DNA from: Dyadobacter fermentans
GTDB taxonomy: Bacteria; Bacteroidota; Bacteroidia; Cytophagales; Spirosomataceae
Assembly (NCBI RefSeq): GCF_019924045.1
Contig: NZ_JAHXBN010000022.1
Location: forward strand, 262,168-326,167
DNA: 64,000 nucleotides
Direction: 5' to 3'
Part shown: in pieces, positions 17,326 through 56,433 of the stretch
Position numbering within the stretch: the stretch's first letter is position 1
Layout of the letters: each line of letters starts with the position of its first letter
Translations under genes and position numbers: made by a program
The notes under the pieces: model-generated
What the model saw: the letters and a program-made list of their open reading frames with translations, nothing else
What the model was told of the DNA's origin: nothing
Databases searched by the model: none

Positions 17326-17406
17326 AAATGACAGTATCGTTTCTTGCGTCAGCTATCTCGTAGCTCATGGCGTCCGGTCAATTCCCTACGTGTCTCCCTG
17401 TCATTG

Positions 17407-17480
17407 TATGGTAAGCAGGATTCGAACCTGCGACCCCCTCATCCCAAATGAGGTACGCTACCTGACTGCGCTATTACCAT
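17407..17480 (-). tRNA. tRNA-Pro (anticodon TGG)
   Basis: Complete 74-base cloverleaf: acceptor ATGGTAA pairs fully with TTACCAT, D stem GCGC/GCGT, anticodon arm CCTCA-TTTGGGA-TGAGG with anticodon TGG, and T arm GCAGG-TTCGAAT-CCTGC. The discriminator is A and no CCA is encoded. It is phage-encoded, lying in the early leftward operon among other tRNA-like elements, and could support decoding of CCN proline codons. Confidence 0.93.
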
Positions 17481-40792: not shown

Positions 40793-41782
40793 ATGGATAT
40801 TACGCTTTCAGCTGAAAGGCTTGAAGTAATGAAACATATAGGCAAAGACCTCGACGGGCTGATTGGAGAATACCTGAAACCGATCGAGGAAAACTGGCAA
40901 CCAGCTGATTTTCTGCCCGATGCTACCCGGGAGAATTTTTTGCATGAAGTGAAGCTTTTGCAGGAAAGCTGCCGTGATTTGCCTTATGACTACATTGCCG
41001 TGCTGATCGGGGACACGATTACGGAAGAGGCGCTGCCTACTTACGAATCCTGGCTGGTGGATGTGATCGGTGTCAACCAGGTCGACGAGCCGGAATCCGG
41101 CTGGGTGAAGTGGGTGCGTGCCTGGACGGCCGAAGAAAACCGCCACGGCGACTTGCTCAACAAGTACCTCTACCTCTCGGGCCGTGTGAATATGCGTGCG
41201 ATGGAGGTTTCCACACAGTATCTCATCGCCGATGGTTTCGATATCGGCACCGACCGTGACCCTTACCGGAACTTCATTTATACTTCATTCCAGGAGCTGG
41301 CGACTAACGTTTCGCACCGTCGCACGGCTACGCTCGCGAAGAAATTCGGGAATCCGCATTTATCGAAAATATGTGGTGTGATCGCTTCCGACGAAATGCG
41401 GCATGCGAAGGCTTACAAGACGTTCGTAACCCGGATCCTGGAAGTCGACCCATCGGAGCTGATGCTGGCTTTGGAAGATATGATGAGGAAGAAGATCGTG
41501 ATGCCGGCGCATTTTATGCGGGAAACCGGTGTGAAAATGGGCGAGACTTTCTCCCACTTCTCCGACGCCGCACAACGCCTGGGCGTATATACGACGCTGG
41601 ACTACATCGATATTCTGGAAGACTTATTGAAAGAATGGAATATCGGCTCCGTGCGCGACATGAACGAGAAAGCAGAAAAAGCGAGAGACTATCTGATGGC
41701 CCTCCCCGCGCGACTCAGAAGAATAGCAGACCGTACCCGCATTCCGGATCTCGCATATGAGTTTAGCTGGATAAGCCGGTGA
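40793..41782 (+). CDS. Acyl-ACP desaturase (stearoyl-ACP delta-9 type)
   Basis: 329 residues. The diiron box is complete: two ExxH units, EENRHGD near residues 111-117 and DEMRHAKAY near 202-210, plus the matching Glu of the helices before them (EEALPTYE, FQELAT). This is the soluble di-iron plant/actinobacterial class, forming monounsaturated fatty acids on ACP with O2. It shares a divergent promoter with plsC, which fits lipid-membrane adjustment. Confidence 0.92.
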   Translation: MDITLSAERLEVMKHIGKDLDGLIGEYLKPIEENWQPADFLPDATRENFLHEVKLLQESCRDLPYDYIAVLIGDTITEEALPTYESWLVDVIGVNQVDEPESGWVKWVRAWTAEENRHGDLLNKYLYLSGRVNMRAMEVSTQYLIADGFDIGTDRDPYRNFIYTSFQELATNVSHRRTATLAKKFGNPHLSKICGVIASDEMRHAKAYKTFVTRILEVDPSELMLALEDMMRKKIVMPAHFMRETGVKMGETFSHFSDAAQRLGVYTTLDYIDILEDLLKEWNIGSVRDMNEKAEKARDYLMALPARLRRIADRTRIPDLAYEFSWISR

Positions 41783-41790
41783 AGAAACAG

Positions 41791-41859
41791 AATGGTCTAT
41801 GGTCCATGGTCTGTGGTCGGTTTACGAACGCGACCATGGACCGCAGACCATCGACCATT
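41791..41859. repeat. Inverted repeat with heptamer arms (ATGGTCn)
   Basis: Left arm: four 7-mers ATGGTCT, ATGGTCC, ATGGTCT, GTGGTCG (41792-41819). Right arm: four 7-mers CGACCAT, GGACCGC, AGACCAT, CGACCAT (41831-41858), with an 11-base loop. It lies between the convergent desaturase and T9SS genes and may work as a terminator. The tandem make-up of both arms is shared with elements in the iol operon. Confidence 0.75.
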
Positions 41860-41870
41860 GCCTTACTTCA

Positions 41871-43862
41871 TTACTGCAACAACATTACCGCCCCCTTCTT
41901 ACTGATGATCTTCCCTTTGGTTGATACTCCTTCGATTTCCCACACGTAGTTACCCGAAACGGCTGTGCTGCCGTTGAAAGAGCCATCCCAGCCGGTGTTG
42001 AGCTGGTTGGTGAAAAAAACTACTTGCCCCCAGCGATTGAAAATGCGGAAGTAGCGGATCGATTCGATATCGTTCACGACCGGTACCAATACTTCGTTCT
42101 TGCCGTCGCGATTGGGCGAGAATGCGGTGGGAATTATAATGCTCTCCTGGCGGGTAATGGACAGGTTCACCTGGCCGGTGCCTTTGCAGCCCGTCTCCGA
42201 TACAACATCTACCGTATAAGACTGATTTTCCCGCAAAACTGCCACCGGGCTCTGAATATTAGCGTTGTTCAGCCCGATTGCCGGCGTCCAGAGAAACGTG
42301 GCCGCTGCGTAATTGCGAATCTGGGGCGAAGTAGCATTGAGCTGGAAAGGGACATTATATTCGATCAGGGCGTCGGGCGTTACATTCACTTCGATTTTCG
42401 GGGATACCGTGACGCGCACGGTATCCGTTTGGGTACAAAAGCCCTTCGTGGCAGTAATAACATATTCCGTAGTGGTTTCGGGACTAGCCACCGGCTCCAA
42501 CATGCTGGCATTATCCAGTCCGTTTTGCGGCAGCCATGAAAACGCCTGGCCATTGCTGGTAGTAGCGAGTGCGACAGATTGCCCTGTGCAAAGGGTAGTG
42601 TCCGGCATGGTACTGACGATAATATCGCTGGTAAACGTCACATTAGCATCCTGCGCGGTGGTGCAGCCGTTGTAGTCTTTGACAAACACCCTGTAATGCC
42701 CTGCCGGCACCTGAAATGTGTTGGACGCGAGGTAATTAACGGAGTCGATAGAGTATTGGTAAGGCGAAGTGCCGTCCGCTGCTGTAAGCGTGATCGTACC
42801 ATCGGTGCCGGTATCGCAGCTGCCCGATGCCACTTCGGCTGTGAGCTTCGGCCTTCCGATGACAATCTGCTTGCCGTTTTCGAGGGTGTTGCCGCATGCC
42901 TGGCTGGTGACGGCAAGTGTAACATATTTTGGACCACCGGTTGACCATTTTAATACGTAGGGGCCCATTCCGGAGCCGGAGATAACCTGAGCACCGTCCC
43001 AGCCCCATTTGAAATCATAGCCGGTGCCGGGTGCCGGAATAGGGCCGGTGTATTTTACCTCAACGTTTTTTGAAGGGTCACAATCCGGGCTGGCAATGAT
43101 GGAAAAATCCGCATACGGGTTAATGTTGGCCTCAAAGCAGATTTCCGCAGCGGATTTATTCACAGCTGCCTGCGGAAAATACTCACGCCGAAAAGACAAG
43201 TAAGCGATATTCGCTTCGCCGGATTCACAGGAAACTACGTTATCATCCCGAAAAACATAAATCGGTACCCCGGCTTTACCGACGTAGTTTTTGTTGGCGT
43301 CGATGAAGCTCGTAAAAAGGTTGTTGCCAACATAAATATCCATTCTTCCGGTAGCACCATCGCGCGTGAAAGTCAGCAGGTAGTAAGTGGCCGAATCAAA
43401 ATAAGGGCATTCTCCGATAACACCGTTTGGAGTTAATTCCAGGCAATGGCTGTTATTTCCCGGAGTAGTTTTGAAATAAATACCTTGATCGCGGGTGCCA
43501 TTCGAAAAATCGATGATCCTGGCCCTGGTTTGGCCCCAGTCGGTCACTTTCAGGTAAAGCTGAATGGTGTAGGTTTCGGAGACGAGCCCGTCGGGATTGG
43601 GGTACATTAGGCCCCAATTCATATTAGTATGATAGACAGCCCGCCGCTCGCCGCAAGGAAGGACTTCCGAAACAGACCTGCCTCCCGAACTCCCGGCATT
43701 GCATGAGCCGCCCGATTTTACCTGTACAAGGTCGGGCCCGCATTCCGGCTGTGCCACAGCGAATTCGTTTCTAAAACGATAGGTTTGTTTGCCGGTCTGC
43801 GCGTGAGCAAAAGGCAGGAAAGAGCAGAAAAAGAAGAGGATATATAAAGCGCTCGCCTTCAT
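41871..43862 (-). CDS. T9SS-associated surface protein with gliding-motility C-terminal domain
   Basis: 663 residues. A signal peptide (MKASALYILFFFCSFLPFAHAQ) starts it. A laminin-G/concanavalin-like part (YTIQLYLKVTDWGQTRARIIDFSNGTRDQGIYF) follows. PKD/SprB-like repeats come next (CDTGTDGTITLTAADGTSPYQYSIDS, VTVSPKIEVNVTP). The C-terminus carries the gliding/T9SS B-type signal IPTAFSPNRDGKNEVLVPV, then FRIFNRWGQVVFFTNQLNTGWDGSFNG. It is secreted by the type IX system to the surface, perhaps as an adhesin; no ligand is known. Confidence 0.9.
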   Translation of the reverse strand: MKASALYILFFFCSFLPFAHAQTGKQTYRFRNEFAVAQPECGPDLVQVKSGGSCNAGSSGGRSVSEVLPCGERRAVYHTNMNWGLMYPNPDGLVSETYTIQLYLKVTDWGQTRARIIDFSNGTRDQGIYFKTTPGNNSHCLELTPNGVIGECPYFDSATYYLLTFTRDGATGRMDIYVGNNLFTSFIDANKNYVGKAGVPIYVFRDDNVVSCESGEANIAYLSFRREYFPQAAVNKSAAEICFEANINPYADFSIIASPDCDPSKNVEVKYTGPIPAPGTGYDFKWGWDGAQVISGSGMGPYVLKWSTGGPKYVTLAVTSQACGNTLENGKQIVIGRPKLTAEVASGSCDTGTDGTITLTAADGTSPYQYSIDSVNYLASNTFQVPAGHYRVFVKDYNGCTTAQDANVTFTSDIIVSTMPDTTLCTGQSVALATTSNGQAFSWLPQNGLDNASMLEPVASPETTTEYVITATKGFCTQTDTVRVTVSPKIEVNVTPDALIEYNVPFQLNATSPQIRNYAAATFLWTPAIGLNNANIQSPVAVLRENQSYTVDVVSETGCKGTGQVNLSITRQESIIIPTAFSPNRDGKNEVLVPVVNDIESIRYFRIFNRWGQVVFFTNQLNTGWDGSFNGSTAVSGNYVWEIEGVSTKGKIISKKGAVMLLQ

Positions 43863-44027
43863 ATCGTTGCCTGCATACCGAACGTGAGTAAAAATTGGGA
43901 TTCAAAATTACGGTAAATACAACTAAAACGATGCCAGTTCGCTGCTTTTTTGATGGAGCGGCTAGAAAACGGACGGGGCCCGCAAATGCAGGCCCGGTCG
44001 AGTGAACAATATGTATGTGAGAGTATA

Positions 44028-45476
44028 TTATGGGATTGCTCTTACGTTTCCGCGGCGGATCATGAGATTGTCCTTCGTTTTGAGGTCATCATGAAGCATT
44101 TTTCGGAAGCTGTCGACGCTCTTCGTGGCTGCAAGGCGTTGTCCTTCCGGAGCCGGAATCCCTATAATGTCGAGTGCTTTGCGGAGCAGCGTTTCATTTT
44201 CATCACCAAATGGCAGGTAAGGCACGGTAGAGTCTTCTACTTCGTAATCCGGCGTCATACCATTCACTGTACCATAATCCGACTCGCCGTTGGCATTGGT
44301 AGTTTGCCCGAGCATGATATAGGCGCCCCATTTCCATCGCTCCTGGTCGTCGCTGACCAGCGAACCGAACAGGTTTTTGCCGGCAGTATGTTCGCCGATC
44401 TTGATCACGTTCATGTATGGTTTCAATCCATTTATTACCAGTTCGCTGGCTGATGCCGTGCCATTGGATGTAAGCACAAACACGCGGTTCAATGTGCTGC
44501 CGATATTGTTCGCTTCGTTGAGGAACGAATAGTTGAGTGCATCGGCTCCCTGTGTTTTCTGCCAGTAAGCAGTGTATTTATCGTTCCATTGCTCCTTATA
44601 GAAAATTTTAGAGTTGGAAACACCGGTCCCGATGAGCGATGCGAGCGTTTCTGCCGAACTGATATATCCCCCCGGATTGAACCGCAAGTCAAGTACCAGT
44701 TCATTGACGCCCTTACTTTTAAAATCCGCGAATACCTGGCGCAACTCATTGTCGTACTTCGATGCGTCGGTTTCGGTACCCGGTACGAATTGCGTGTAAA
44801 CCAGATAACCGATTGTTTTGCCATAAGTGGGTTTTGAAATAACCGTGGAAAACAGAACGGGGTCTTCGCTTACCTCCGCCTTGGTCATGGTGATGGTCTG
44901 GCTGCTTGCCACAATATCGGAACCCGAGACTTCTCCCAGCGTGAAAGTAGCCGTTTCGTTGCTGCTGAGGAGTGACGTGTAGTTGCTGGAAGTAAGTTGT
45001 GTGCCATTCACTTTCATGAGAATATCTCCGCGTTTCAAGCCTGCCGCTTCTGCCGGGCTGCCTTTTACCACGTAGTTCAGGAAGGCGGCAATGTTGGACT
45101 TCCCATTATCGATGTAAGACAATGAATAGCTGATGCCGAAAATTTTGCTGATGCCATTGAACTCGTCCTGCAAGGCATCAATATCGTCGGTAACCATCGA
45201 GAACCGGTCGACGGTTGTCCGTTGATAGACGAGTTTCTCAAAGTAATCGTGAGGATCAATGGTGTTATCGAGCGTGCTTTCGGCCGGGAGGTTTTTGTAC
45301 CAGAAATATGCGTCGTCCATCACGTCGTAAAGCCAGCTGTTTATTTCGGGATAATCCGCCGCCGTGGTGGAATCGACTTTTGCGATGGCCGGATCGACAT
45401 CCTTATCGTGACAACCCACCACCGCCAACGCAAATATCAGGACATAGAGCAGATGTAATTGTTTGAAATTTAACAT
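44028..45476 (-). CDS. S41-family (C-terminal processing) peptidase lipoprotein
   Basis: 482 residues from the ATG at 45476 (MLNFKQLHLLYVLIFALAVVGCHDK, lipoprotein Cys22); an upstream frame has no leader. An N-terminal helical part is followed by a PDZ domain (YVVKGSPAEAAGLKRGDILMKVNG) and the S41 core. The catalytic Ser is in FVLTSNGTASASELVINGLKPY and the Lys in GEHTAGKNLFGS. It probably clips exported proteins at the envelope. The downstream gap (43863-44027) holds no gene. Confidence 0.9.
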   Translation of the reverse strand: MLNFKQLHLLYVLIFALAVVGCHDKDVDPAIAKVDSTTAADYPEINSWLYDVMDDAYFWYKNLPAESTLDNTIDPHDYFEKLVYQRTTVDRFSMVTDDIDALQDEFNGISKIFGISYSLSYIDNGKSNIAAFLNYVVKGSPAEAAGLKRGDILMKVNGTQLTSSNYTSLLSSNETATFTLGEVSGSDIVASSQTITMTKAEVSEDPVLFSTVISKPTYGKTIGYLVYTQFVPGTETDASKYDNELRQVFADFKSKGVNELVLDLRFNPGGYISSAETLASLIGTGVSNSKIFYKEQWNDKYTAYWQKTQGADALNYSFLNEANNIGSTLNRVFVLTSNGTASASELVINGLKPYMNVIKIGEHTAGKNLFGSLVSDDQERWKWGAYIMLGQTTNANGESDYGTVNGMTPDYEVEDSTVPYLPFGDENETLLRKALDIIGIPAPEGQRLAATKSVDSFRKMLHDDLKTKDNLMIRRGNVRAIP

Positions 45477-45669
45477 AGTGTTCAGTTTAAAGTAATGTGT
45501 AAACTGATTCCATAGGCCGCAATGCAATGTAGGTTAATCGGTAATATACTGCTGTTACGTAGGGTGGAGGGGAAATGTGGCGGTGGGAGATGCTATTTTT
45601 ATTCAAAAAACGGAGTAACTGCCCCGGGAGGGGCATCCTGTTTATAGAATTACCATTCATAAAACGGAA

Positions 45670-45721
45670 ACCGGCTCCGGAGGAGCCTCCTAAGTTATCA
45701 GGAGGCCCCTCCGGAGCCGGT
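45670..45721 (-). repeat. Long inverted repeat downstream of iolE
   Basis: ACCGGCTCCGGAGGAGCCTC and its complement form a 22-base stem with one mismatch around an eight-base loop (AAGTTATC). The arms are themselves made of short GGAG/CTCC palindromes. Likely the iol transcript end or a protective 3-prime hairpin. Confidence 0.75.
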
Positions 45722-45748
45722 TAAATGGGTGCGTATTGATATACTGTA

Positions 45749-45773
45749 AACAGGTGGGCCCGCCGGGCCTGTT
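45749..45773 (-). terminator. Second hairpin downstream of iolE
   Basis: AACAGGtGGGCCcgcCGGGCCTGTT folds into an imperfect nine- to ten-pair stem. It lies 66 bases after the iolE stop. Without a strong T run, so a stability or partial termination element. Confidence 0.5.
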
Positions 45774-45839
45774 CCCGCAATTGTTGCTTGTTAAATGCCG
45801 CAGACCTTGAATAATGTCGGCGCTTGAACTACTGAAATC

Positions 45840-46742
45840 TTAAATCCCTGTTAATCCCCTGAAAAAATTCCTTGCAATGATAGCGTATTCGAGCGGGTTT
45901 GCTTTGGCGGGGTCTTGTTCGGCTTCGAGGACGATCCAGCCCGCATAATCGCTTTTTTTGATGATTTCGAAAAGCGATGGGAAATCAATGCAGCCTTCGG
46001 AATCGCCGGGGACGGTGAAAACGCCGTTTTTAACGGCCGTCAGAAAGCTCAGGCGCTCGTCATGTACGCGTTGCAACACGTTCGGGCGTACGTCTTTCAG
46101 GTGTATGTGCGCTGTGCGGCCGATGTACTTGTTTAATGCGGCTACCGGGTCTTCGCCGGCGAAATGGAAATGCCCGCAGTCGTAGTTCAGGAACACGTAG
46201 TCGGGATTGGTTTCGTTGAGCAGCCGGTCGGTTTCTTCCACGGTTTGAATGCAAGTACCCATATGATGGTGAAATGCGAGTTTCATGCCCCGGTCGCGGG
46301 CGATTTTGCCGAGCTCATCCAGGCCGTAGGTGAAATTGTCCCAGTCTTCACGGGTATTCAGCATTCCTTTGCCTTCGAATACCGGGACATCCATCTGGCC
46401 CTGGCAGCTGTTACCCGTTTCGCCACCACCGATCACCTTCGCCCCCATTATTTCCAGGAAATCGAGCAGTTTCGTGAAGTTTTCGCGGTTTTCAGCGAAG
46501 GATTTCGTTGTCAGCTCGTAGCTGTTCCATTGATTACAGATCTGCAAGCCGCGGAGTCCCAGTGCTTTTTTCAGGACATTGGTATCGCGGGGAAATTTGT
46601 TGCCGACCTCGCAGCCAGTAAATCCGGCCAGCGCCATTTCGCTCACACATTGCTCAAATGTATTCTCGCCGCCGAGCTCCGGCATATCGTCGTTGGTCCA
46701 GTTGATAGGAGCAACCCCCAGTTTGATGTTTTCGAAGTTCAT
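45840..46742 (-). CDS. iolE: 2-keto-myo-inositol dehydratase
   Basis: 300 residues of a TIM-barrel sugar isomerase/epimerase fold. IolE signature segments are IKLGVAPINWTNDDMPELG at the start, GFTGCEVGNKFP, LKLAFHHHMGTCIQT, and YVFLNYDCGHFHFAGEDP with FIHLKDVRP-like AHIHLKDVRPNV. Metal ligands lie in the E/D/H/E set of these segments. It dehydrates scyllo-inosose to 3D-(3,5/4)-trihydroxycyclohexane-1,2-dione in the cytoplasm. It is the last gene of the iol operon. Confidence 0.92.
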   Translation of the reverse strand: MNFENIKLGVAPINWTNDDMPELGGENTFEQCVSEMALAGFTGCEVGNKFPRDTNVLKKALGLRGLQICNQWNSYELTTKSFAENRENFTKLLDFLEIMGAKVIGGGETGNSCQGQMDVPVFEGKGMLNTREDWDNFTYGLDELGKIARDRGMKLAFHHHMGTCIQTVEETDRLLNETNPDYVFLNYDCGHFHFAGEDPVAALNKYIGRTAHIHLKDVRPNVLQRVHDERLSFLTAVKNGVFTVPGDSEGCIDFPSLFEIIKKSDYAGWIVLEAEQDPAKANPLEYAIIARNFFRGLTGI

Positions 46743-46748
46743 TTTTTT

Positions 46749-46843
46749 GGAAAGGGATGAAGGGGATGAAAGGGAGGATGGAGGAAGGGGAGGATGGAGG
46801 AGAAAAATTCATCCTCCCTTTCTTCCCTTTCCTCCTTTCTCCC
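46749..46843 (-). repeat. Purine/pyrimidine inverted repeat between iolD and iolE
   Basis: The left arm is a G/A run with repeats of GGATG and GGAGG (46749-46802). The right arm is its pyrimidine counterpart, CATCCTCCCTTTC and CTCC repeats (46809-46843). GAAAGGGAGGATG and its exact complement occur. The arm ends at the iolD stop codon. It can form a hairpin in the RNA between the two genes, or a purine triplex-like structure in DNA. Confidence 0.7.
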
Positions 46844-48708
46844 TATAAAAAGATTCGTTGCGTTTTTTTGTTCTCGCGATAAGTTTCAAATGCTTTTTGC
46901 ACCGATGCCGATGTCGATATTTCGGCCACAGGCACTTCCCACCATGCGTGGTAGCCCTTCACGGTGCGGTAGAGGCTCGTTTCGATGTAAATGACGGTCG
47001 TCCGGCCGGCGGTTTTGGCTTGTGCCAATGCGTTTTCAAGCGACTGCCTGTCGGTAGCGCGGATGACGTTGGCGCCGAGGCTTTCCGCATTTTTGGCAAG
47101 GTCCACCGGCAAAAATCCGCCCGACAGCTGGCCGGTTTCGTTTTCGCGGTATTTGTACATGGTTCCAAAACGCTCGCTGCCGATGCTTTCTGACAACCCT
47201 CCGATACTCGCGTAGCCATTGTTATTCAAAAGCAAAATCGTGAAGCGCACACCTTCCTGAATGGCCGTTACGATCTCGTGGTTGTTCATCAGGTAACCGC
47301 CATCACCACAGAGTACGTACACTTCGCGGGTAGGATCAGCCATTTTAGCACCCAGCCCCGCAGCGATCTCATAACCCATGCAGGAGAAACCGTATTCCAG
47401 GTGGAAGTTCTTAGGATCGGTGGCGCGCCAGAGCTTGTGCAAATCCCCCGGAGCGCTGCCCGATGCGTTGATCATCACATCGCGATCGTCCATGAAGCTG
47501 TTCAATGTACCTATCACCACCGCCTGATCGATCGGTGGAACGGTGCCGTTACCGTCGGCGTAGATTTGCGTTACTTCATCATCCCACGCCTTGTTGATAT
47601 CAGCCATATGCTGGCGATAATCCGCCGCGACTTCATGGTTACTCAAAAGTCCCGCGAGTTCTTCCAGGACGGCCTTCGCATCCCCGATCACGGGTAATGC
47701 AGCGTGTTTGAAAGCATCAAACTCGCTGATATTGATATTGATAAAACGGACATCCGGGTTTTTGAAGATCGACTTGGAAGCCGTCGTAAAATCGCTGTAA
47801 CGCGTGCCGATACCGATGACGAGGTCGGCCTGGTTGGCCACATCGATAGCATATTTGGTGCCGGTAGCGCCCAAGCCGCCAATGCTGTACGGCGCATCGT
47901 AGCGCACGGCACCTTTTCCGGCGAAAGTTTCGCCGACAGGAATGCCGGTTTTGGAGGCAAATTGATGAAGTGTTTCAGCTGCACCGCTGTAAATAGCCCC
48001 GCCACCTGCCACAATCACCGGTTTTTGAGCAGATTTGATCCATTCAGCCGCCTTTTGCAAAGTTACCAGGTCAGGACGAGGCCGGCCGACGTGCCATACG
48101 CGTTTTTGGAACAATGAATCAGGAAAATCGTAGGCGTGAGTCTGGACATCCTGCGGCATGGAGAGCGTCACCGCACCCATTTCGGCCTGTGAAGTAAGTA
48201 CGCGCATTACTTCGGGCAAGGAGTAAATAAGTTGCTCTGGGCGGTTAATGCGGTCCCAGTACTTGGAAACCGGTTTGAAACAATCATTTACAGAAATATC
48301 CTGTGAAGCCGCGCTTTCGAGCTGTTGCAAAACCGGGTTAGGCTCGCGGGTAGCGAAAATATCGCCCGGGAGAAGCAGTACGGGCAACCGGTTAATGGTT
48401 GCCAATGCGGCGCCTGTGATCATATTGGTAGCGCCGGGGCCGATGGACGTTGTACAGACGAATGCGCCCAACCGGTTCTTCACCTTCGCATAAGCGACCG
48501 CGGTATGGACCATCGATTGCTCGTTACGGCATTGGTAGTAACGGAAATCCGGGTTTTCCTGCAATGCCTGGCCCAGTCCGGCCACATTGCCATGCCCGAA
48601 AATGCCGAAACAGCCGCCGAAATAGAGCTCCTCGACGCCGTCGCGTTCGATGTACTGGTTTTTTAGAAACATGATGGTAGCCTGTGCTACCGTGAGTCGT
48701 TTGGTCAT
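46843..48708 (-). CDS. iolD: 3D-(3,5/4)-trihydroxycyclohexane-1,2-dione hydrolase
   Basis: 621 residues of the thiamine diphosphate enzyme family. N-terminal Pyr domain (GCFGIFGHGNVAGLGQALQ), central domain (WIKSAQKPVIVAGGGAIYSGA) and C-terminal PP domain. ThDP is held by CGDGGYLMNNHEIVTAIQEGVRFTILLLNNNGYASIGG near residues 438-475. It opens the ring of the diketone to 5-deoxy-D-glucuronate. It belongs with iolE and iolB in the operon. Confidence 0.95.
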   Translation of the reverse strand: MTKRLTVAQATIMFLKNQYIERDGVEELYFGGCFGIFGHGNVAGLGQALQENPDFRYYQCRNEQSMVHTAVAYAKVKNRLGAFVCTTSIGPGATNMITGAALATINRLPVLLLPGDIFATREPNPVLQQLESAASQDISVNDCFKPVSKYWDRINRPEQLIYSLPEVMRVLTSQAEMGAVTLSMPQDVQTHAYDFPDSLFQKRVWHVGRPRPDLVTLQKAAEWIKSAQKPVIVAGGGAIYSGAAETLHQFASKTGIPVGETFAGKGAVRYDAPYSIGGLGATGTKYAIDVANQADLVIGIGTRYSDFTTASKSIFKNPDVRFININISEFDAFKHAALPVIGDAKAVLEELAGLLSNHEVAADYRQHMADINKAWDDEVTQIYADGNGTVPPIDQAVVIGTLNSFMDDRDVMINASGSAPGDLHKLWRATDPKNFHLEYGFSCMGYEIAAGLGAKMADPTREVYVLCGDGGYLMNNHEIVTAIQEGVRFTILLLNNNGYASIGGLSESIGSERFGTMYKYRENETGQLSGGFLPVDLAKNAESLGANVIRATDRQSLENALAQAKTAGRTTVIYIETSLYRTVKGYHAWWEVPVAEISTSASVQKAFETYRENKKTQRIFL

Positions 48709-48739
48709 GTCTTTTGAATATTTACTGTTCGAAACAGAG

Positions 48740-49690
48740 TCAGCTGATAATGTCGCTGAAATCGCCCGCCTTGCCCGTGCAACCGAACAGGTCGAATTTT
48801 TTCAGCATAAACTTCTTGTATTCCTCCATAAAAATCTTCCCCGGGGTAGTGGGGGCGAATTCGTCGGGGCGGTCGCGGAAAAACTCCCGGTTGACCATCG
48901 TCCATAGCAAACGCGTGTCGGTGGCAATGTTAATCTTGCAGATTCCCAGCGGAATGGCCTTCCTTACTTCTTCTTCCTGCACACCTTTGGCATCGGTTTT
49001 CAATCGGCCGCCGGCTGCATTAATGCGTTCTATCACTTCCGGCACCACATTGGAGCCGCCGTGCAGCACAAGCGGGAAGCCCGGCAAGCGCTGCCGGATT
49101 TCCTCGAGAATATGGAATTGCAAACCCTGCCCACCCGAGAATTTGTAGGCACCGTGGCTGGTACCGACGGCAATGGCCAGGCTGTCGCAATCAGTAGCAT
49201 GCACAAAATCCTCGACTTGCTGAGGATTGGTATAAAATGAATGCGCGGCGTCTACGGTCAGATCATCTTCCACACCGGCCAGCACGCCAAGTTCAGCTTC
49301 CACACTAATGCCTTTGGCATGTGCTGCGGCCACTACGGCTTTGGTACGGGCTACATTTTTTTCAAAATTGTCGTGCGAGGCATCGATCATCACGGAGGTG
49401 TAGCCGCCTTTGTCGATAGCATCGAAAATGTGCTCTTCATACCCATGATCCATGTGGATCGCATACGTCACGTGCGGGTAAATGCGTGCCGCCGCACCTA
49501 TCATTGACAGGAGCATATCCGCATTCGCGTAGTCACGTGCGAAGGGCGTAGTTTGTACGATGAAAGGAGCATTGGCCTCTTGTGCTGCGGCGAAAAGGCC
49601 ATGGATTTCTTCCATGAAAAACACATTCACGGCCGGTATCGCGTAGCGGCCATAGCACTTTTCGAATAATTGTTTCGTCGTCAGAAGCAT
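48740..49690 (-). CDS. iolJ: Class II aldolase of the inositol pathway (IolJ/FbaA-type)
   Basis: 316 residues. Zn-binding His residues are in AIHMDHGYEEHIFDAIDKGGYTSVMIDASHDNFEKN and FPLVLHGGSNVVPE; the GNxxGS-like phosphate loop is AVGTSHGAYKFSG. The family includes fructose-1,6-bisphosphate aldolase; in an iol operon the likely substrate is 2-deoxy-5-keto-D-gluconate-6-phosphate, giving DHAP and malonate semialdehyde. The assignment to IolJ rests on context. Confidence 0.85.
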   Translation of the reverse strand: MLLTTKQLFEKCYGRYAIPAVNVFFMEEIHGLFAAAQEANAPFIVQTTPFARDYANADMLLSMIGAAARIYPHVTYAIHMDHGYEEHIFDAIDKGGYTSVMIDASHDNFEKNVARTKAVVAAAHAKGISVEAELGVLAGVEDDLTVDAAHSFYTNPQQVEDFVHATDCDSLAIAVGTSHGAYKFSGGQGLQFHILEEIRQRLPGFPLVLHGGSNVVPEVIERINAAGGRLKTDAKGVQEEEVRKAIPLGICKINIATDTRLLWTMVNREFFRDRPDEFAPTTPGKIFMEEYKKFMLKKFDLFGCTGKAGDFSDIIS

Positions 49691-49700
49691 CTGGTTAGTG

Positions 49701-49840
49701 GCTTTCGGCTGTCGGCAATCGACAGTCGATCATTGGTGGTATGGCCGTTTTTTTTTATCAATACATTTCCCCGAGAACTAAACGCTCCGGACTTCGCTTA
49801 TCGCCGACAGCCGACAGCCGACAGCCGACAGCCGACAGCT
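49701..49840 (-). repeat. Inverted repeat with heptamer arms (GCCGACA), transporter/aldolase gap
   Basis: The right arm holds five exact GCCGACA units in a row (49803-49837), ending at the transporter stop codon. The left arm has four degenerate units GCTTTCG, GCTGTCG, GCAATCG, ACAGTCG (49701-49728), the complement type. The loop is about 75 bases. Period 7 in both arms allows pairing in several registers. Confidence 0.8.
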
Positions 49841-51449
49841 ACCAAAATATCGTGTATAAAGCTGCCAGCACACCGCATATCAGCACCGAGCCGATCACGA
49901 AACTCTTGCCGGGCTGGAACATCGACGCCTCGATTTTCAGGCCCTTCGGATTGTCCTTGCTTTTCGGATCGGCCAGGGAAACGGCGACGATCACGGCGCA
50001 GAGGATCAGGAAGATGTAGCCCATACGGTCGAGGAACGGGATTTCAGGATACCTAAATTTCCCTGCTGTCGACAACGGGATCGTCAGCAATGCGGCTGTG
50101 AGAGCCGCAGCGGATGTAGTCCGTTTCCAGAACATGCCCAGGATGAATATGGCAAACACACCCGGGGTAATAAAACTGCTGTATTCCTGAATGAATTGGT
50201 AAGCCTGGTCGAGCACCCTCAGTTGCGGGGCAATGAGTATACCGATCCCCATGGCGACGTAGATCGTGTAGCGGCCTACGCGCACAAGCTGGCGTTCGGT
50301 AGCGTGTGGAGCGATGTATTGTTTGTAAATGTCTAATGTAAATATCGTTGAGATACTGTTTGCTTTACCGGCCAATGACGCGACAATAGCAGCGGTTAAC
50401 GCGGCAAATGCCATTCCTTTTAGGCCTGCGGGCAGGAGGTTGAGCAAAACGGGGTAAGCATGGTCAGGTTTCACCGCATTACCATCGAGCATTTCCTGCT
50501 GGAACATGCCGTTTTGGTACAAAACAAATGCGGCGATGCCCGGGATTACGACGATGATCGGGATGAGCAGTTTGAGCAACGCAGCGAAAAGGATACCTTT
50601 CCGGGCCGTTGGTAAGCTCGCACCAAGGCTTCGCTGGATAATGTACTGGTTGCAGCCGAAATAAGCGAGGTTGTTGATCCACATTGCACCGATGATCACC
50701 GACAGACCGGGAAGATCTTTATAAAAAGGATGCTCTTTCGGCAGGATCATATGGAAATGCGAACCGGCCTGTTCGCGGAGCAACGCTAGCGCATTAAAAA
50801 GACCCGGCCTGTTAAAATGTTCCGAAACGAGGTCCAAAGCAAGGTAAGTCGTGGCCAGACCTCCCATCACGAGCACTATTACCTGTACGACATCCGTATA
50901 CCCGATTACTTTCATCCCACCGATCGTGATCACGATCGCAAACAGGCCGAGTCCCACGATGCCGTAGTTGAAATCGAGGCCGGCGGTCACTTCGAGTGCG
51001 AGTGCGCCGAGGTAGAGGATGGATGTCAGGTTTACAAATACATACAATAGGAGCCAGAAAACTGCCATGATTGTCGCCACCGTGGGACTATACCTTTCCC
51101 GCAGGAATTGTGGCATGGTGTAGATCTTGTTTTTAAGATACACCGGCAGGATAAACAATGCGACGACGATCAGTGAGGCCGCAGCCATCCATTCGTAGGA
51201 AGAAATGGCCAGGCCAATGGCAAATCCCGATCCCGACATCCCGATAAAGTGCTCCGCCGAAATGTTGGAAGCGATGATGGAAGCACCGATCGCCCAGAAC
51301 GTCAGCGAGCCCTCTGCAAGGAAGTAGTCGGTTGAACTAACCTCTTTCGAGCTTTTCTTTTTATAAATCCAGTAACCGTAAGCGGAAACGCCTATCAGAT
51401 AGATGAAAAATACTATGTAATCCAGCGATTGCAGACCGGTAGTGGACAT
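49839..51449 (-). CDS. Sodium/solute symporter (SSS family), probable myo-inositol transporter
   Basis: 536 residues with about 13-14 membrane helices (LDYIVFFIYLIGVSAYGYWIY, SNISAEHFIGMSGSGFAIGLAISSYEWMAAASL). SSS signatures include the unwound helix SIIASNISAEHFIGMSGSGFA and the Na+-site region GKANSISTIFTLD. SLC5-like inositol/sugar transport fits the location in the iol operon. Substrate specificity is inferred from context. Confidence 0.9.
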   Translation of the reverse strand: MSTTGLQSLDYIVFFIYLIGVSAYGYWIYKKKSSKEVSSTDYFLAEGSLTFWAIGASIIASNISAEHFIGMSGSGFAIGLAISSYEWMAAASLIVVALFILPVYLKNKIYTMPQFLRERYSPTVATIMAVFWLLLYVFVNLTSILYLGALALEVTAGLDFNYGIVGLGLFAIVITIGGMKVIGYTDVVQVIVLVMGGLATTYLALDLVSEHFNRPGLFNALALLREQAGSHFHMILPKEHPFYKDLPGLSVIIGAMWINNLAYFGCNQYIIQRSLGASLPTARKGILFAALLKLLIPIIVVIPGIAAFVLYQNGMFQQEMLDGNAVKPDHAYPVLLNLLPAGLKGMAFAALTAAIVASLAGKANSISTIFTLDIYKQYIAPHATERQLVRVGRYTIYVAMGIGILIAPQLRVLDQAYQFIQEYSSFITPGVFAIFILGMFWKRTTSAAALTAALLTIPLSTAGKFRYPEIPFLDRMGYIFLILCAVIVAVSLADPKSKDNPKGLKIEASMFQPGKSFVIGSVLICGVLAALYTIFW

Positions 51450-51500
51450 GCTTATGAAAGGGTTAGTTGGTTAAATGTTACGGTAATTGATGTCGGGAAT

Positions 51501-51710
51501 CGGTGTTGGTCAGGCATTGTCAAGAGTAGTCAGGTGTTGTCATGCATTGTCAAGTGTAGTCAGGTCTGGTTGTTTATGTGGGCCAAACTTATTCATTTTC
51601 CACTACACCTGATATTCATGATTACAAATGACAATACTTGACCATTCATGACTACAATGACAATACCTGACCACCCCTGACTACAAATGACTACGTTTGG
51701 CTATTCCTGA
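51501..51710 (-). repeat. Inverted repeat with decamer arms (TGAC/GTCA), iolG/transporter gap
   Basis: Left arm: six units ending in GTCA at exactly ten-base spacing (ends at 51512, 51522, 51532, 51542, 51552, 51562). Right arm: about eleven units starting TGA/TGG at 9-10-base spacing (51610 to 51708), running into the last codons of iolG. The arms are complementary in content (GTCA against TGAC). The loop is about 45 bases. The 251-base gap holds no gene. Confidence 0.8.
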
Positions 51711-52738
51711 GCCGCGGCTGCGTAATGCAGCACCTCGTCCAATTTTACGCTTCTGCCCTCGGTCAGCGACTTCATGGCAGCGATACCGATTGCCGTCGCC
51801 ATGAGACCATCGTGCGCATCCACCGGTGACGGGGTGTCTTTCAACACGCAATCGATGAACGTTTTAAGGCACACGCGATAGGCGGTTTCATATCTTTCGA
51901 GGAAGAAATGCAGCGGCAACGAGCTGTGGCCACCATTGCTGTCGAAATGAATGAGTGTATCGGTGGTATTGTTTTCTGCTTTCGCCATGCCTTTAGAACC
52001 GAAAATTTCCAGGCGCTGGTCGTAACCATAAACGGCCTTGCGGCTGTTGTCGATGACACCTATCGCCCCGTTTTCGAAGGTTAACACGATAACTGCTGTA
52101 TCGATATCACCGAATTCCCTGATCTCCGGGTGAATGAGCGCGTCGCCTTTCACGAATACCTCTTTTATCTCGCTTCCCACTATGTAGCGCGCCATATCGA
52201 AGTCGTGGATGGACATATCGAGGAAAATCCCGCCCGAAACTTTCAGGTATTCTACCGGCGGCGGTGCCGGGTCACGGCTGGTAATGCGGAGAATGTGCGG
52301 TTCCCCGATTTTTTCATTCGCGACCAGGTGCCGTACATTCATAAAGTTGGCATCGAAGCGGCGGTTGAAACCGAGCATTAGTTTCACATTGTTGTCCGAC
52401 ACCGCTTTTTCGGCAGCCTGAATCGCTTCCAACGTTACATCCAGGGGCTTTTCACAAAAAACGTGTTTCCCTTTTTCAGCAGCGGCTACGGTGTAAGGCA
52501 CGTGAAAAGGAGTGGGCGAGCATATGATTACCGCCTCTACGCCGGGGTGGTTGATCACATCGTAGGCATCCGTAACGACCTCGGGTACGCCCAGGTCACG
52601 TGCGAATGCGTGTGCAGCAGGCGAGAGGTCGGAAGCGATGATCACTTCCGCGTCGGGCATATGGTGCACAAGGTTGCTAAGGTGGATCTGGCCAATCCGG
52701 CCCAGTCCGATCACACCGGTTTTGAGTTTTTTTGTCAT
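51701..52738 (-). CDS. iolG: Inositol 2-dehydrogenase
   Basis: 345 residues, Gfo/Idh/MocA family without an export leader, so cytoplasmic. NAD-binding GLGRIGQIHLSNL at the start, the sugar-binding EKP motif (HVFCEKPLDVTLEAIQ), and SGGIFLDMSIHDFDMARY, where the Asp and His are catalytic. It oxidises myo-inositol to scyllo-inosose, the first step. Neighbouring genes support this over scyllo- or chiro-inositol use, though those remain possible. Confidence 0.92.
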   Translation of the reverse strand: MTKKLKTGVIGLGRIGQIHLSNLVHHMPDAEVIIASDLSPAAHAFARDLGVPEVVTDAYDVINHPGVEAVIICSPTPFHVPYTVAAAEKGKHVFCEKPLDVTLEAIQAAEKAVSDNNVKLMLGFNRRFDANFMNVRHLVANEKIGEPHILRITSRDPAPPPVEYLKVSGGIFLDMSIHDFDMARYIVGSEIKEVFVKGDALIHPEIREFGDIDTAVIVLTFENGAIGVIDNSRKAVYGYDQRLEIFGSKGMAKAENNTTDTLIHFDSNGGHSSLPLHFFLERYETAYRVCLKTFIDCVLKDTPSPVDAHDGLMATAIGIAAMKSLTEGRSVKLDEVLHYAAAAQE

Positions 52739-52764
52739 TTTCTAGTATTGCGAGCGAGTTGCAT

Positions 52765-52852
52765 CCGTCGACTAAAGTCGACGGTCAAAAGATTATACAA
52801 GATTTCTTATCGGATCATTTGTCAATTCCTTGCCGTCGACTTAAGTCGACGG
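52765..52852. repeat. Paired palindromes CCGTCGACTwAAGTCGACGG, iolA/iolG gap
   Basis: Two 20-base palindromic units (52765-52784 and 52833-52852) differ at one position. Each can form its own hairpin, and the two can also pair with each other. The second is extended by TCAATTCC/GAATTGA flanks. A period-10 tract (GAATTGATTA, GAATTGAATA, GATTAGAATT) follows to about 52882. Confidence 0.75.
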
Positions 52853-52891
52853 GAATTGATTAGAATTGAATAGATTAGAATTTTTTAATTT

Positions 52892-54358
52892 CTAAAACTT
52901 CCTGTTCCATTCTTTCAGCCAGCGCTCGATCACCACTTTGGTTTGGGTGAAGAATTCGACCGCATGCCTGCCCTGGCCGTGGAGGTCGCCGTAGAAGCTA
53001 TCCTTCCAGCCCGAGAAAGGAAATTGCGCCACAGGAGCGGCGACACCGATATTGATACCAATATTCCCCGCCTCTGCTTCATGACGGAAACGGCGGGCAT
53101 TCAAGCCGCTACTGGTGAAAATACAGGCCATATTCCCATACTTGCCGGAATTGATAAAGCGGATCGCTTCGTCGATGGTATTAATATGCACTAGGCTTAG
53201 CACCGGTCCGAAAATCTCGGTAGCCGCCAGCTCGCCATCCAGCGGAATGTCTTCAATGATGGTTGGGGCGATGAAGTTACCGTTTTCATAGCCATCGATT
53301 TTCGCATTACGCCCGTCTACCAGCAAGCGGCCACCTTCATGCAAGCCCTTGTCGATGAGGCTGTGAACTCGGTTTTTGCTCTCTGCAGTGATGACGGGCC
53401 CCATTAACACATCCGAATCCAGGCCGAAACCCGTTTTACGGTTCCGTGCCGATTCCACCAGGCTTTCGGTAATATCTTTATGTTCGCCCACAGTGATGAT
53501 CGTCGAAGCAGCGAGGCATCGCTGACCAGCGCAGCCGTAAACGCTGTCGATGACGATCTGTGAAGTCATGTCGATATCCGCATCCGGCAACACGATCACC
53601 GGGTTTTTGGCGCCTCCCTGTGCCTGCACACGCTTACCGTTGGCCGAGCCTTTGGCGTACACATAGCGAGCCACATTGGAAGAACCTACGAAGCTGATAC
53701 CTTTGATTACAGGGTGTTCGAGAATCGCATCCACCGTCTCACGCGCGCCTTGCACGAGGTTCAATACCCCTTTCGGAAGATCCAGTTGCTCCATGAGTCC
53801 AACAATCTTGGTCATGGTCAGGGGCACCTTTTCCGAGGGTTTGATAATGTAGCTGTTCCCGCAGGCGAGTGCATAGGGGAGGAACCAGAACGTGATCATC
53901 CCCGGAAAGTTGAACGGCGCGATACATGCGCACGGGCCTAGCGGTTGGCGGATCATGTATTCGTCGATGCCCTTGGCAATATCTTCCGAAAACTCGCCCT
54001 GAATAAGCGTGGGCATACCACACGCATTTTCGACATTCTCGATCGCGCGCACCATTTCGGCCTTCGCTTCGATGAACGTCTTACCCGATTCGAGGGTGAT
54101 GGTTCGCGCGATGTCGTCGGCGTTGTCTTCGAGTATTGTTTTAAGTTTAAACAAATATTGCACACGCTTCGAAACCGGCGTATTTCTCCATTCCTGAAAG
54201 CCTTCCTGGGCAGCCGCAGCGGCATCGGCGACGTCTTGCGCATTACCGTAGGGCACTTTCGCCAGCACTTCCTGGTTGGCGGGGTTCACCACATCCACAT
54301 AGTTGTCGGAATGGCTGTCGACCCAGCGGCCGTTGATGTAATTCTGTAATTTTTCCAT
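52892..54358 (-). CDS. iolA: Methylmalonate/malonate-semialdehyde dehydrogenase (CoA-acylating)
   Basis: 488 residues of the aldehyde dehydrogenase superfamily. Catalytic Cys in [14 protein letters not shown] near residue 285; the NAD region [14 protein letters not shown]. Like MMSDH, the general-base Glu loop is replaced by [14 protein letters not shown] and the CoA-acylating form is expected. It turns malonate semialdehyde into acetyl-CoA and CO2, the last step of inositol breakdown. Confidence 0.92.
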
Positions 54359-54372
54359 TTGTATTTTAAAAC

Positions 54373-55380
54373 TTATAATCCTCCGTATCCTTTCACGAAC
54401 TCCATCACCTCGTCATAGACCGGCATGAAATTCGCGCAGCCTTCACGAGTCACGATGATCGCCCCGCAAGCATTGCCCATTCTCACGCTTTTGTACAAAT
54501 CCCAGCCCCGAAGCAGTCCGAACGAGAAGCCGGCGCAGAACGCGTCGCCAGCGCCCAGGACATTCAGTACCTCCACCGGGAAACCGGGTACTTTCACTTC
54601 TTCCTTACCCGGCTGGAAAATGGACGCACCGTCTTTACCGCGCTTCACGACCAGCGTCTCCACGCCCGAATTCAAGATTTCCTGGATGGCATTCTCAATA
54701 TTCCCGCGGATTTCGGGTGCTGATATTTGCTGATGTTTAATGAGAAGCTGTTCCTTATCAGTCAAAAACGTAGCGAGGATCTCTTCCTCGGTTCCTACCA
54801 CGATATTGAAGCTACCCAATGCCGCTCGAATGGTTACGCCAAATGCACGCGGATCAAACCACTGGTCAGCACGGAAATCGATGTCAAGCAATCGCGTAAC
54901 ACCATTCTTTTTCGCCAGTTCAAGGGCATAGAACATCGCAGTACGGCTCGGGTCCTTGCTGAATGCCGTGCCTGAGAACGCAGCTGCTTTGAAATCCTGG
55001 AACGGTATGGAGGATACGTGATCGATATTCAGGTTGATATCCGCACAGTTCTCGCGGTAATACACCAGCGGGAAACGGTCGGGCGGCTCGATACCCAGCA
55101 CGACGGCCGAGCTGCGGGTACCTTCGATAACCGGAACCCATTCGGTAACAATACCTTCGTTGTCGAGGAAATGCTTGATGAAGTTCCCGACCTGATCGTT
55201 GCCGATGCCGGTCAGGATAGCCGTTTCCAGGCCCAGGCGACGGCTTCCCGTGGCGATATTGAGCGGACAGCCGCCTACGAATGCATTGAATGCCTCGATT
55301 TTTTCAAAAGGGCTACCCACGTTGGCCGAGTAGAGGTCAATGGACGAGCGGCCAAGGGTAAGAAGATCGTATTTGGGCAT
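54373..55380 (-). CDS. iolC: 5-dehydro-2-deoxygluconokinase
   Basis: 335 residues of the PfkB ribokinase family. The start [40 protein letters not shown], and the C-terminal signature [26 protein letters not shown] with the catalytic Asp, are characteristic. It phosphorylates 5-dehydro-2-deoxy-D-gluconate for the aldolase step. Starts 14 bases before iolA. Confidence 0.94.
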
Positions 55381-55393
55381 GTCTTTTTTGTAC

Positions 55394-55484
55394 TTCGGCT
55401 TTCGGCAGTCGGCCGTCGGCCCTTGTTTTTCGTTATGTTATCTTAATCACCAACAGTCCGACAGCCGATAGCCGACAGCCGAAG
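55394..55484 (-). repeat. Inverted repeat with heptamer arms (TTCGGCn/GCCGAnn), iolB/iolC gap
   Basis: Left arm: TTCGGCT, TTCGGCA, GTCGGCC, GTCGGCC (55394-55421). Right arm: TCCGACA, GCCGATA, GCCGACA, GCCGAAG (55457-55484). Four 7-base units each, loop 35 bases. GCCGACA is the same unit as in the array at 49803. Confidence 0.8.
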
Positions 55485-55490
55485 TTCCCT

Positions 55491-56354
55491 TCATCCATTC
55501 ATCTCCGCCGTCACGATCGGTAGTCTCGGATCGGCGCCTTTCCACGTTCCGTAAATCCAGTCGTGGTCGGGGTCGGAGGTGTTGGCGAGCGACTGGTCGC
55601 TTCCTGCGAGGAAATTGAGGTAATATACGTTATAGCCATGTCCGGCTACTACCGGGTGGTAGCCTTTGGGAACGAGCACCGCCTCATTGTTTTTCACGCG
55701 GATGATCTCGTCGAGCGAGCGGTCTTCGGTATAAACCTGCTGGATGGCGTAGCCCTGCGGTTTGTCGATTTTGTAGAAATAGATTTCTTCAAGATTCGCT
55801 TCGAGCAAAGTGCCATCCCCGGCTACCTTGCGCTCGTCGTGCTTATGCGCAGGGAAAGAGCTCCAATTGCCGGAAGGCGTGTACACTTCCACACAAACTA
55901 TCTTGTGGCAGCCGAAGCCCGGTTCGAGCAGGCTGTTGATCTGGCGGTTGGCATTGTCACCACCACGGTATTCGATCGCAGCTTCCTCGGGACGCTTCAT
56001 GCGTGGCGGGTGGTCTTCGTCGGACAATACTTTGCAAATCGCAATGTCGGTACCGGGCGACTGCGCCGTAAGTACGAACGGCGTGCGGCGCGAGAGGTAC
56101 ATCGCATGCCCGATCCCGCTGAACACATCCTTGCGGCCATTGCCCGTTTCCCAGACTTGCCCGGCGGCTTCTATCTTGAAATTTCCGCCCAGCAATGCGA
56201 AGCAATATTCATATTCGCCCGTATCTCCCACGATTTGTTCGCCTGCTTCCAGTATTTTAGCTTCGAAGTTCAGGTAGGTCCAGCCAGCCTGTTCGGCGGT
56301 GAGAGAATGATAGGTCTTGTCGTGTGTTTGGGGCTTGATCAGCAGGTTACTCAT
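55491..56354 (-). CDS. iolB: 5-deoxy-glucuronate isomerase
   Basis: 287 residues from the ATG at 56354 (MSNLLIKPQTHDKTYHSLTAEQAGW); a longer frame adds an improbable leader in the promoter. The double cupin of IolB is visible (GDTGEYEYCFALLGGNFKIEAAGQ, GNWSSFPAHKHDERK, YYFKID-like EIYFYKIDKPQGYAIQQVYTED, KGYHPVVAGHGYNVYYLNFLAG) with metal-binding His and Glu. It converts 5-deoxy-D-glucuronate to 5-dehydro-2-deoxy-D-gluconate. First gene of the operon. Confidence 0.95.
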   Translation of the reverse strand: MSNLLIKPQTHDKTYHSLTAEQAGWTYLNFEAKILEAGEQIVGDTGEYEYCFALLGGNFKIEAAGQVWETGNGRKDVFSGIGHAMYLSRRTPFVLTAQSPGTDIAICKVLSDEDHPPRMKRPEEAAIEYRGGDNANRQINSLLEPGFGCHKIVCVEVYTPSGNWSSFPAHKHDERKVAGDGTLLEANLEEIYFYKIDKPQGYAIQQVYTEDRSLDEIIRVKNNEAVLVPKGYHPVVAGHGYNVYYLNFLAGSDQSLANTSDPDHDWIYGTWKGADPRLPIVTAEMNG

Positions 56355-56433
56355 TGTGGTAAATCCATTACATTTGCACAATGATAGTGTTGTATAAATT
56401 AAACACAAAATGTAAATATGTTAATATTGAATG

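Follow-up and report, generated by a model that had tools for sequence, protein, structure and literature searches.

Inverted repeats with arms of heptamer units at gene ends in and beside the iol operon of Dyadobacter fermentans

Heptanucleotide repeats, including some that form hairpins, are already known in bacteria, and it is against this background that we describe inverted repeats whose arms are degenerate tandem arrays of seven-base units and which lie in gaps within and beside the iol operon of Dyadobacter fermentans, in a stretch of 64,000 nucleotides (contig NZ_JAHXBN010000022.1, positions 262,168 to 326,167) that we call the window. Among the closest described systems is the P6b-type heptanucleotide hairpin of Nostoc, the original work on which is reportedly that of Costa et al. 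in 2002; its arms, like those found here, consist of degenerate, pairing heptamers, with varying copy number and two repeat classes. That hairpin, however, occupies a single tRNA-Leu intron site in cyanobacteria, whereas the Dyadobacter repeats occupy many operon and convergent gaps, and the accounts of it that are available say nothing of orthologous gaps at which many units turn over, as they do in Dyadobacter. The short tandemly repeated repetitive (STRR) sequences of filamentous cyanobacteria are alike in being tandem heptamers of several kinds per genome; inverted hairpin arms are not described in the portion of that literature consulted.

Two further groups are direct arrays. The GGGAATC/GGGANTN arrays of Xanthomonas and the GGGGA(C/T)T arrays of Nostoc are mostly intergenic, combine fixed with free positions and lie nearer the 5' open reading frame (ORF) than the downstream one, polymerase slippage being cited as their proposed cause; unlike the Dyadobacter repeats they are G-rich, quadruplex-forming direct arrays, each group having a single unit type, with most arrays conserved between corresponding genes of two related species, and the accessible part of the source, which also mentions three tandem heptanucleotides for Calothrix, describes no inverted hairpin arms (PMC4692102). 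TAACTGA heptamer repeats occur in Beggiatoaceae, Cyanobacteria and five Bacteroidetes; as far as the excerpted source goes, they too are intergenic, the Bacteroidetes gaps are shorter and without obvious repeats in close relatives, and other heptamer direct repeats stand in some Bacteroidetes gaps, but these are direct repeats of one unit, most of which immediately precede start codons in the main genome, where there is one inverted pair (PMC4679880). An earlier survey, as these papers relate it, reported an excess of heptanucleotides among long simple repeats in many bacterial genomes, with slippage across the length of DNA contacted by the polymerase as the suggested cause (PMC4679880, PMC4692102). 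No report of an inverted, multi-unit heptamer hairpin family in Bacteroidota was found in the open literature, most subscription papers lying outside the search.

The repeats described here are intergenic, dominated by a period of seven, particular in sequence to each gap, and present, absent or rewritten between related species. We regard the chances as about even that they are products of a process acting at the DNA level and not copies of one mobile element.

Periodicity, placement and spread of the arrays

Our sample of the own genome comprised 1.264 Mb (the window plus 1.2 Mb) with 756 gaps; gene boundaries in unannotated sequence came from a simple ORF caller, so that gap types and distances carry some error. 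Arrays with a period of seven (lag-7 arrays) were present in 28 of the 756 gaps, against 0.6 after shuffling; lags 14 (22 gaps) and 21 (18 gaps) came next as multiples of seven, and the next independent period was lag 10, with 12 gaps against 0.2 in shuffled sequence. A strong inverted repeat was found in 85 gaps, versus 5 when each gap was shuffled once, and the identical pipeline returned lag-7 arrays in none of 105 gaps in 200 kb of Escherichia coli K-12. The initial annotation had named equal numbers in shuffled sequence or in unrelated genomes as the outcome that would speak against the repeats; neither comparison came near equality, and we confirm that the hairpin repeats are real and far above chance. 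Both hallmarks of heptanucleotide tandem repeats are present, namely head-to-tail 7-mers in excess of chance and of neighbouring periods, and mostly intergenic placement: among the 32 arrays with a score of 13 or more, 30 were intergenic, one was coding and one straddling, in sequence with 89% of its bases coding. By gap type, the heptamer arrays occupied 17 of 517 co-directional, 9 of 93 convergent and 2 of 146 divergent gaps. A strict inverted repeat accompanied the array in 60 of 94 lag-7 gaps, compared with 348 of 1912 other gaps, and was lacking in the remaining 34.

Beyond the own genome, the search covered 59 named loci around iolD, partly orthologous (L-numbers; WIN denotes the window), and further genomes (G-numbers). 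Among the named loci, lag-7 gaps amounted to 7 of 113 in eight close relatives, 24 of 417 in other Dyadobacter and 31 of 162 in twelve loci mostly of Chitinophagaceae and Sphingobacteriales; there were none among 65 gaps of Emticicia and Pseudarcicella or among 32 gaps of six distant records. Further genomes gave 7 of 45 gaps (G092), 5 of 137 (G123), 4 of 118 (G322), 3 of 123 (G064), 1 of 117 (G044) and 1 of 26 (G118), and no lag-7 gap in G017 (121 gaps), G035 (132), G181 (15), G256 (11), G219 (13), G178 (19) and G274 (21).

One heptamer class, GTCGGCN, was counted over whole genomes as three units with at most two mismatches, overlapping places being counted apart. The own genome had 186 places against 36 for the reversed control, and 47 other genomes of the genus had from 0 to 393, with none in G001, G007, G008, G022 and G046, so that the class is patchy even inside the genus. 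G092, from a different family of the same order, had 432 places, and a phylum-wide draw returned any match in 56 of 296 genomes, mostly one or two. In G322 the reversed control occurred at 433 places and the pattern itself at 12, for which reason this genome probably has a heptamer class of its own. Four genomes of 2.5-3.0 Mb outside the window's class (G239, G289, G305 and G363; genus g122, family f36) had 17 to 44 GTCGGCN places, and GTYGGCA-type heptamer arrays were among the places listed for them. A heptamer array of L013 (8739-9019) includes a stretch of N in the assembly; long-array counts may be too low in draft genomes.

The repeat-bearing gaps of the iol locus

The operon is read on the minus strand from iolB (56408) to iolE (45840), and the repeats sit within and beside it (Table 1); its transporter is a sodium:solute symporter (SSS), and iolJ is a name given here by position to the class II aldolase. 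Inverted repeats were found at 41792-41851, 46749-46843, 49695-49845, 51519-51710, 52765-52852 and 55392-55485. Three gaps are built of heptamers (41783-41870, 49691-49838 and 55381-55490), their 7-bp tandem units being located at 41792-41818, 49803-49839 and 55453-55482; in the transporter-iolJ hairpin the sense 5' arm (49838-49803) is CTGTCGG repeated five times and the sense 3' arm spans 49728-49700. Inverted-repeat and tandem-unit mapping thus agrees with the initial annotation, which had reported seven-base units in the gaps at 41791, 49701 and 55394, and its ten-base units at 51501 are borne out as well: gap 51450-51700 has units of about 10 bp, present as a 10-bp sub-period (lag 10 identity 0.48) of 30- and 29-bp tandem units within 51502-51565 and 51607-51691. 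Other arm designs had been seen at 46749 and 52765. The former holds, with 9/16-bp units in gap 46743-46842 (9/16/17-bp tandem units within 46749-46844), but gap 52739-52891 contains a pair of 20-bp palindromes resembling repetitive extragenic palindromic (REP) sequences and no tandem-arm array. The repeats had also been placed through the iol operon, which is right for the operon gaps but not for gap 41783-41870, which lies outside it and is convergent, between a fatty-acid desaturase gene (40793-41782, plus strand) and a CHU_C-domain gene (41871-43862, minus strand). Of three arms said to run exactly to the upstream stop codon, the iolD-iolE repeat does pair from the first base past the iolD stop, and the transporter-iolJ repeat nearly does so, its array beginning at the first base and its pairing at the third; the remaining gaps have 4, 5 and 8 unpaired bases in between.

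RNA folds of the repeat-bearing gaps, computed on the minus strand for operon gaps and on the plus strand for the convergent gap, were stronger than those of dinucleotide shuffles (z -3.0 to -8.2). Rfam gave two tRNA matches only in the window, at 17239-17480, and the repeat gaps lie between protein genes.

Table 1. Features of the iol locus, in window coordinates; z compares each RNA fold with dinucleotide shuffles.
Feature	Position	Strand	Remarks
iol operon	45840..56408	-	iolB, iolC, iolA/mmsA, iolG, SSS transporter, class II aldolase (iolJ), iolD, iolE
Heptamer-armed inverted repeat, unit ATGGTCN	41791..41859		fold -42.5 kcal/mol, z -6.4
Inverted repeat, iolD-iolE gap	46749..46842	-	purine-rich 5' arm (GGAGGAAAGGGA type), pyrimidine-rich 3' arm; z -3.0
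Heptamer-armed hairpin, transporter-iolJ gap	49700..49838	-	z -5.3
Inverted repeat, iolG-transporter gap	51502..51691	-	arms of degenerate ~10-bp units (GTCANNNNNN); z -4.8
REP-like palindrome CCGTCGACTAAAGTCGACGG, first of pair, iolA-iolG gap	52765..52784		palindrome also flanks a Y1_Tnp gene in the own genome
REP-like palindrome CCGTCGACTTAAGTCGACGG, second of pair, iolA-iolG gap	52833..52852
Heptamer-armed hairpin, unit TCGGCNN, iolB-iolC gap	55392..55485	-	fold -53.7 kcal/mol, z -8.2

The palindrome at 52765 and 52833 (CCGTCGACTNNAGTCGACGG) has further copies elsewhere in the genome, among them a pair at C17:186068/186149. Nine copies were counted at no more than one mismatch in the 1.264 Mb; four of these surround a Y1_Tnp (PF01797) gene, on both of its sides (G000:C9:176926-177267). 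Two of the three own Y1_Tnp genes were examined for flanking palindromes, and the second (C9:956572-956916) had none of this kind within about 400 nt on each side. RAYT serves here as a label for PF01797 matches, a family that also includes IS200-type transposases. A short palindrome that is repeated, paired and beside a RAYT-type gene, as expected of REP elements, is what 52765-52852 presents and what the heptamer arms do not, and on this sequence pattern the pair is taken as a REP-type element different from the heptamer repeats. CGTC-tagged REPs have been reported for Bacteroidetes among other phyla, and this class, as outlined in the part of the source at hand, fits the pair (a small, paired palindrome with a Y1_Tnp link, the RAYT link and the CGTC reading being those of the present analysis) and is unlike the heptamer, 9-bp and 10-bp arms (PMC3733652). 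The single process that had been proposed for all gaps fails accordingly, because the 52765 palindrome is tied to a Y1_Tnp gene and the heptamer arms show no such association in the eight Y1_Tnp gene flanks examined.

Two other palindromes were recorded at the locus. One, downstream of iolE at 45669-45722, has 23-nt arms that are 96% complementary and is the top terminator-like match of the region; palindromes of its type, containing CTCCGGAG, occur also on contig C9 and may represent another REP family. The other, a CTGTTTCGAACAG-like palindrome in the iolJ-iolD gap (48709-48739), is kept in several close relatives and is possibly a regulator site.

Units, arms and turnover at orthologous gaps

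Several unit classes coexist in the own genome, among them ATGGTCN, TCGGCNN, GCCGACN, TAAGCNN, GAGTTTA and GGAGGAA. Units within a genome agreed at 4.65 of 7 positions when the own genome was left aside and at 4.44 of 7 when it was included; between genomes the figures were 4.37 within Dyadobacter, 3.89 for others and 3.79 for shuffled units. Because units differ between gaps that share one architecture, the repeats are not copies of one element, and the comparison of units between gaps supports the initial annotation on this point. When arms are exchanged between species that share a unit class, a left arm fits the foreign right arm roughly as well as its own, and such cross-pairing fails between classes (for iolD-iolE the test was not significant, p 0.063). 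Arms are therefore interchangeable within a class and class-matched within an element, which points to a common class without a unit-by-unit history and rules out exact co-evolution of the two arms. A few gaps hold two facing arrays of different classes, and 5' arms were no more regular than 3' arms (17 vs 23; halves, 29 vs 48).

The tree used to trace change at the iol gaps had 37 rows, namely the window, L036 from Pseudarcicella and 35 loci titled Dyadobacter. L027 was left out, and L057 and L008 were omitted at iolB-iolC and iolD-iolE, respectively, where the locus is cut. The nearest row, L001, with 88% identity over the tree genes, is without repeats at both iolB-iolC and transporter-iolJ. 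The iolB-iolC gap is 21 nt long and hairpin-free in L001-L004, L006 and L048. The transporter-iolJ gap measures 148 nt in the window and 281 nt in L013, 5-8 nt in L001-L006 and L048 (8 nt in the nearest species) and 5-7 nt in L007, L010, L011, L016 and L017; in the remaining loci it holds TCGGCNN, TTRGCNN or TAAGCNN hairpins or other repeats, or is 39-49 nt and array-free. The heptamer state requires at least seven changes on the tree at iolB-iolC (arrays in 10 of 36 rows), seven at transporter-iolJ (12 of 37), six at iolA-iolG (9 of 37) and four at iolD-iolE (7 of 36); it changes once at iolG-transporter (1 of 37), and no heptamer array was found at iolC-iolA or iolJ-iolD across the 37 rows. 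The window and L013 share, by eye, a loop sequence at transporter-iolJ, so that gain is no more likely than loss or exchange in L001 and others. Empty orthologous gaps in close strains had been put forward as evidence against the repeats, and the orthologous gaps of related species are indeed often empty; since they change state repeatedly among species, however, this emptiness points to turnover and is no argument against the reality of the repeats.

Two observations on individual loci belong here. In L016 the iolB-iolC gap (42 nt) has a two-unit, loop-free TCGGC hairpin directly past the stop codon, a form not found in L007, L010 and L011, and this hairpin may be a candidate for an early stage of the element. 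In other Dyadobacter species the iol gaps are occupied by different repeats, of CGCAAAGT type and of CACGAAT type, in the transporter-iolJ gap of L021, L027 and L030 and in the iolD-iolE gap of L023, L024, L026 and L058.

The convergent gap was compared with its orthologues in 22 further loci with gaps below 420 nt, the longer ones of L022, L030 and L032 being left out. Lag-7 inverted repeats with varying units (ATGGTCN, GCCGACN/GACCGCC, TCGGCNN) were detected in 8 of the 9 gaps of the window's clade, and the ninth, that of L005, has a short inverted repeat. Among the 14 other species, nine (L009, L014, L015, L017, L018, L019, L029, L047 and L057) have a gap of 47-77 nt with a short stem that is terminator-like by eye, most clearly in L018 and L019, where A- and T-runs flank it on both sides; the stems of L014, L029 and L057 do not exceed 95% of their own shuffles. 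Other palindromes stand in L007, L010, L011 and L016, and none is clear in L012. In 19 of 23 species the gap has an inverted repeat that exceeds 95% of the shuffles of that gap, in spite of replaced sequence; a hairpin thus tends to be retained at this site through changes of its letters. The heptamer repeats of the window's clade occupy the place of the terminator-like hairpin of other species, and this positional match suggests a 3'-end role for them at the convergent site.

Origin and possible function of the repeats

One explanation holds that the repeats are RNA elements under selection, post-stop stem-loops that end transcription or shield mRNA from 3' exonucleases and so set operon expression steps. 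The strong folds, the scarcity of arrays in divergent gaps and the retained hairpin of the convergent gap all speak for it, as does the closeness of stems to stop codons, the distance having a median of 8.5 nt for heptamer hairpins versus 24 nt for other hairpins (p 0.003). RNA hairpins under selection on the sense strand should, however, tolerate G-U and not A-C pairs. Terminator-like control hairpins did so (132 G-U to 66 A-C, 192 hairpins), as did the other co-directional hairpins of non-orthologous gaps (215:111, n=265, p 9e-9), and the co-directional hairpins of E. coli gave 24 to 12 (p 0.065); the heptamer hairpins of co-directional, non-orthologous gaps had no G-U excess (45:49, n=28), nor had the lag 8-10 hairpins of such gaps (49:62, n=26). 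T-tracts behind the stem were likewise scarce, 2 of 28 co-directional heptamer hairpins having one versus 77 of 265 others, and 0 of 42 versus 16 of 128 in a second set, so the stem with T-tract of an intrinsic terminator is not what these hairpins present. With no G-U excess and mostly no T-tracts, the heptamer hairpins bear no visible imprint of RNA pairing, and the mRNA protection contemplated by the initial annotation is disfavoured as a selected role. Orthologous operon gaps are moreover often hairpin-free, and for heptamer arrays alone the contrast of co-directional plus convergent with divergent gaps is not significant (p 0.14). Taken together, we consider selected RNA elements a doubtful explanation.

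If a DNA-level process is instead responsible, a short seed past the stop codon may have been expanded by seven-base slippage and then duplicated as an inverted copy through fold-back (template-switch) synthesis, after which the arms would expand and vary independently. Such elements would persist mainly downstream of stop codons, where they presumably do least harm; in the convergent gap they could replace an ordinary terminator as the 3'-end hairpin, to judge from one orthologous junction, and inside operons they would be at most loose RNA barriers or spacers. Several observations weigh against this account. In one test, the differences between units of an array clustered at a few of the seven positions (247.2 vs 202.6, sd 3.3, 70 arrays), which plain slippage with random mutation does not predict, and a stricter test left a weak excess (228 vs 212.2, sd 7.8, 28 arrays; 257 vs 249.1, sd 8.5, 42 arrays). 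The G-richness of 5' arms (45 to 6, with many rows homologous; 17 to 7, p 0.064, in non-orthologous gaps) is left unexplained by the model. A strand polarity tied to transcription is itself weakened, because the 5' arm of a palindrome is identical on both strands and the ratio of 45:6 is inflated by the homologous iol loci; co-directional arrays without an inverted partner were G-rich in the 5' half in 12 of 17 cases and C-rich in the 3' half in 12 of 16, the background gap halves being 332:333 and 206:453 for G>C versus C>G. No birth event was caught between near-identical strains, the nearest row being 88% identical. Finally, within the iol-locus set, some rows of which are homologous to one another, neither heptamer hairpins (59 to 93) nor other co-directional hairpins (114:120) had a G-U excess, so that the contrast between them rests on the non-orthologous set.

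The uneven variation has a possible counterpart in sites for an array-binding protein, which would read a core of fixed letters that recurs every 7 bp and leaves two or three positions free (TCGGCNN, TAAGCNN, NNGGTCN), and units are indeed somewhat more alike within than between genomes. Yet that likeness is barely above the genus level once the own genome is counted, several unrelated cores coexist in one genome, and units of fixed core and free position, strong in the first test, are weak under the stricter null, all of which makes such a protein improbable. We regard it as very improbable that a transposase such as RAYT moves the repeats as a small mobile element, REP-like or otherwise: all but one of 48 Dyadobacter genomes have Y1_Tnp genes, the 52765 palindrome is of REP type and some GTCGGC-type 20-mers are identical at many places in G032, but units vary from site to site, and RAYT as the mover is largely ruled out by a Y1_Tnp gene number that does not track the counts of one heptamer class over the 48 genomes (rho 0.07, p 0.66) and by the lack of lag-7 arrays in all eight Y1_Tnp gene flanks examined. 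It is conceivable, but extremely improbable, that the repeats are scars of end extension, in which 3' ends at a broken or nicked gap would gain templated, mostly G/T-rich heptamer runs and then join as facing arrays; this would explain class-matched but unit-unmatched arms, G-rich 5' arms, one-armed arrays and gaps of two classes. The bacterial reverse transcriptase DRT10, which according to the available part of a preprint adds 9-nt repeats to cDNA (PMC12632851), may be cited as a precedent for such extension and for nothing more.

Should the origin by a DNA-level process be right, several groups of Bacteroidota would carry fast-moving hairpins at gene boundaries, in which the period is fixed and the letters are free, and 3' ends would be rewritten within a genus, even to the substitution of a terminator-like hairpin, without an obvious mobile element. 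The repeats would then provide a countable natural experiment on why seven-base repeats are common among the long simple repeats of bacteria, and also on the birth of inverted repeats at gene ends.

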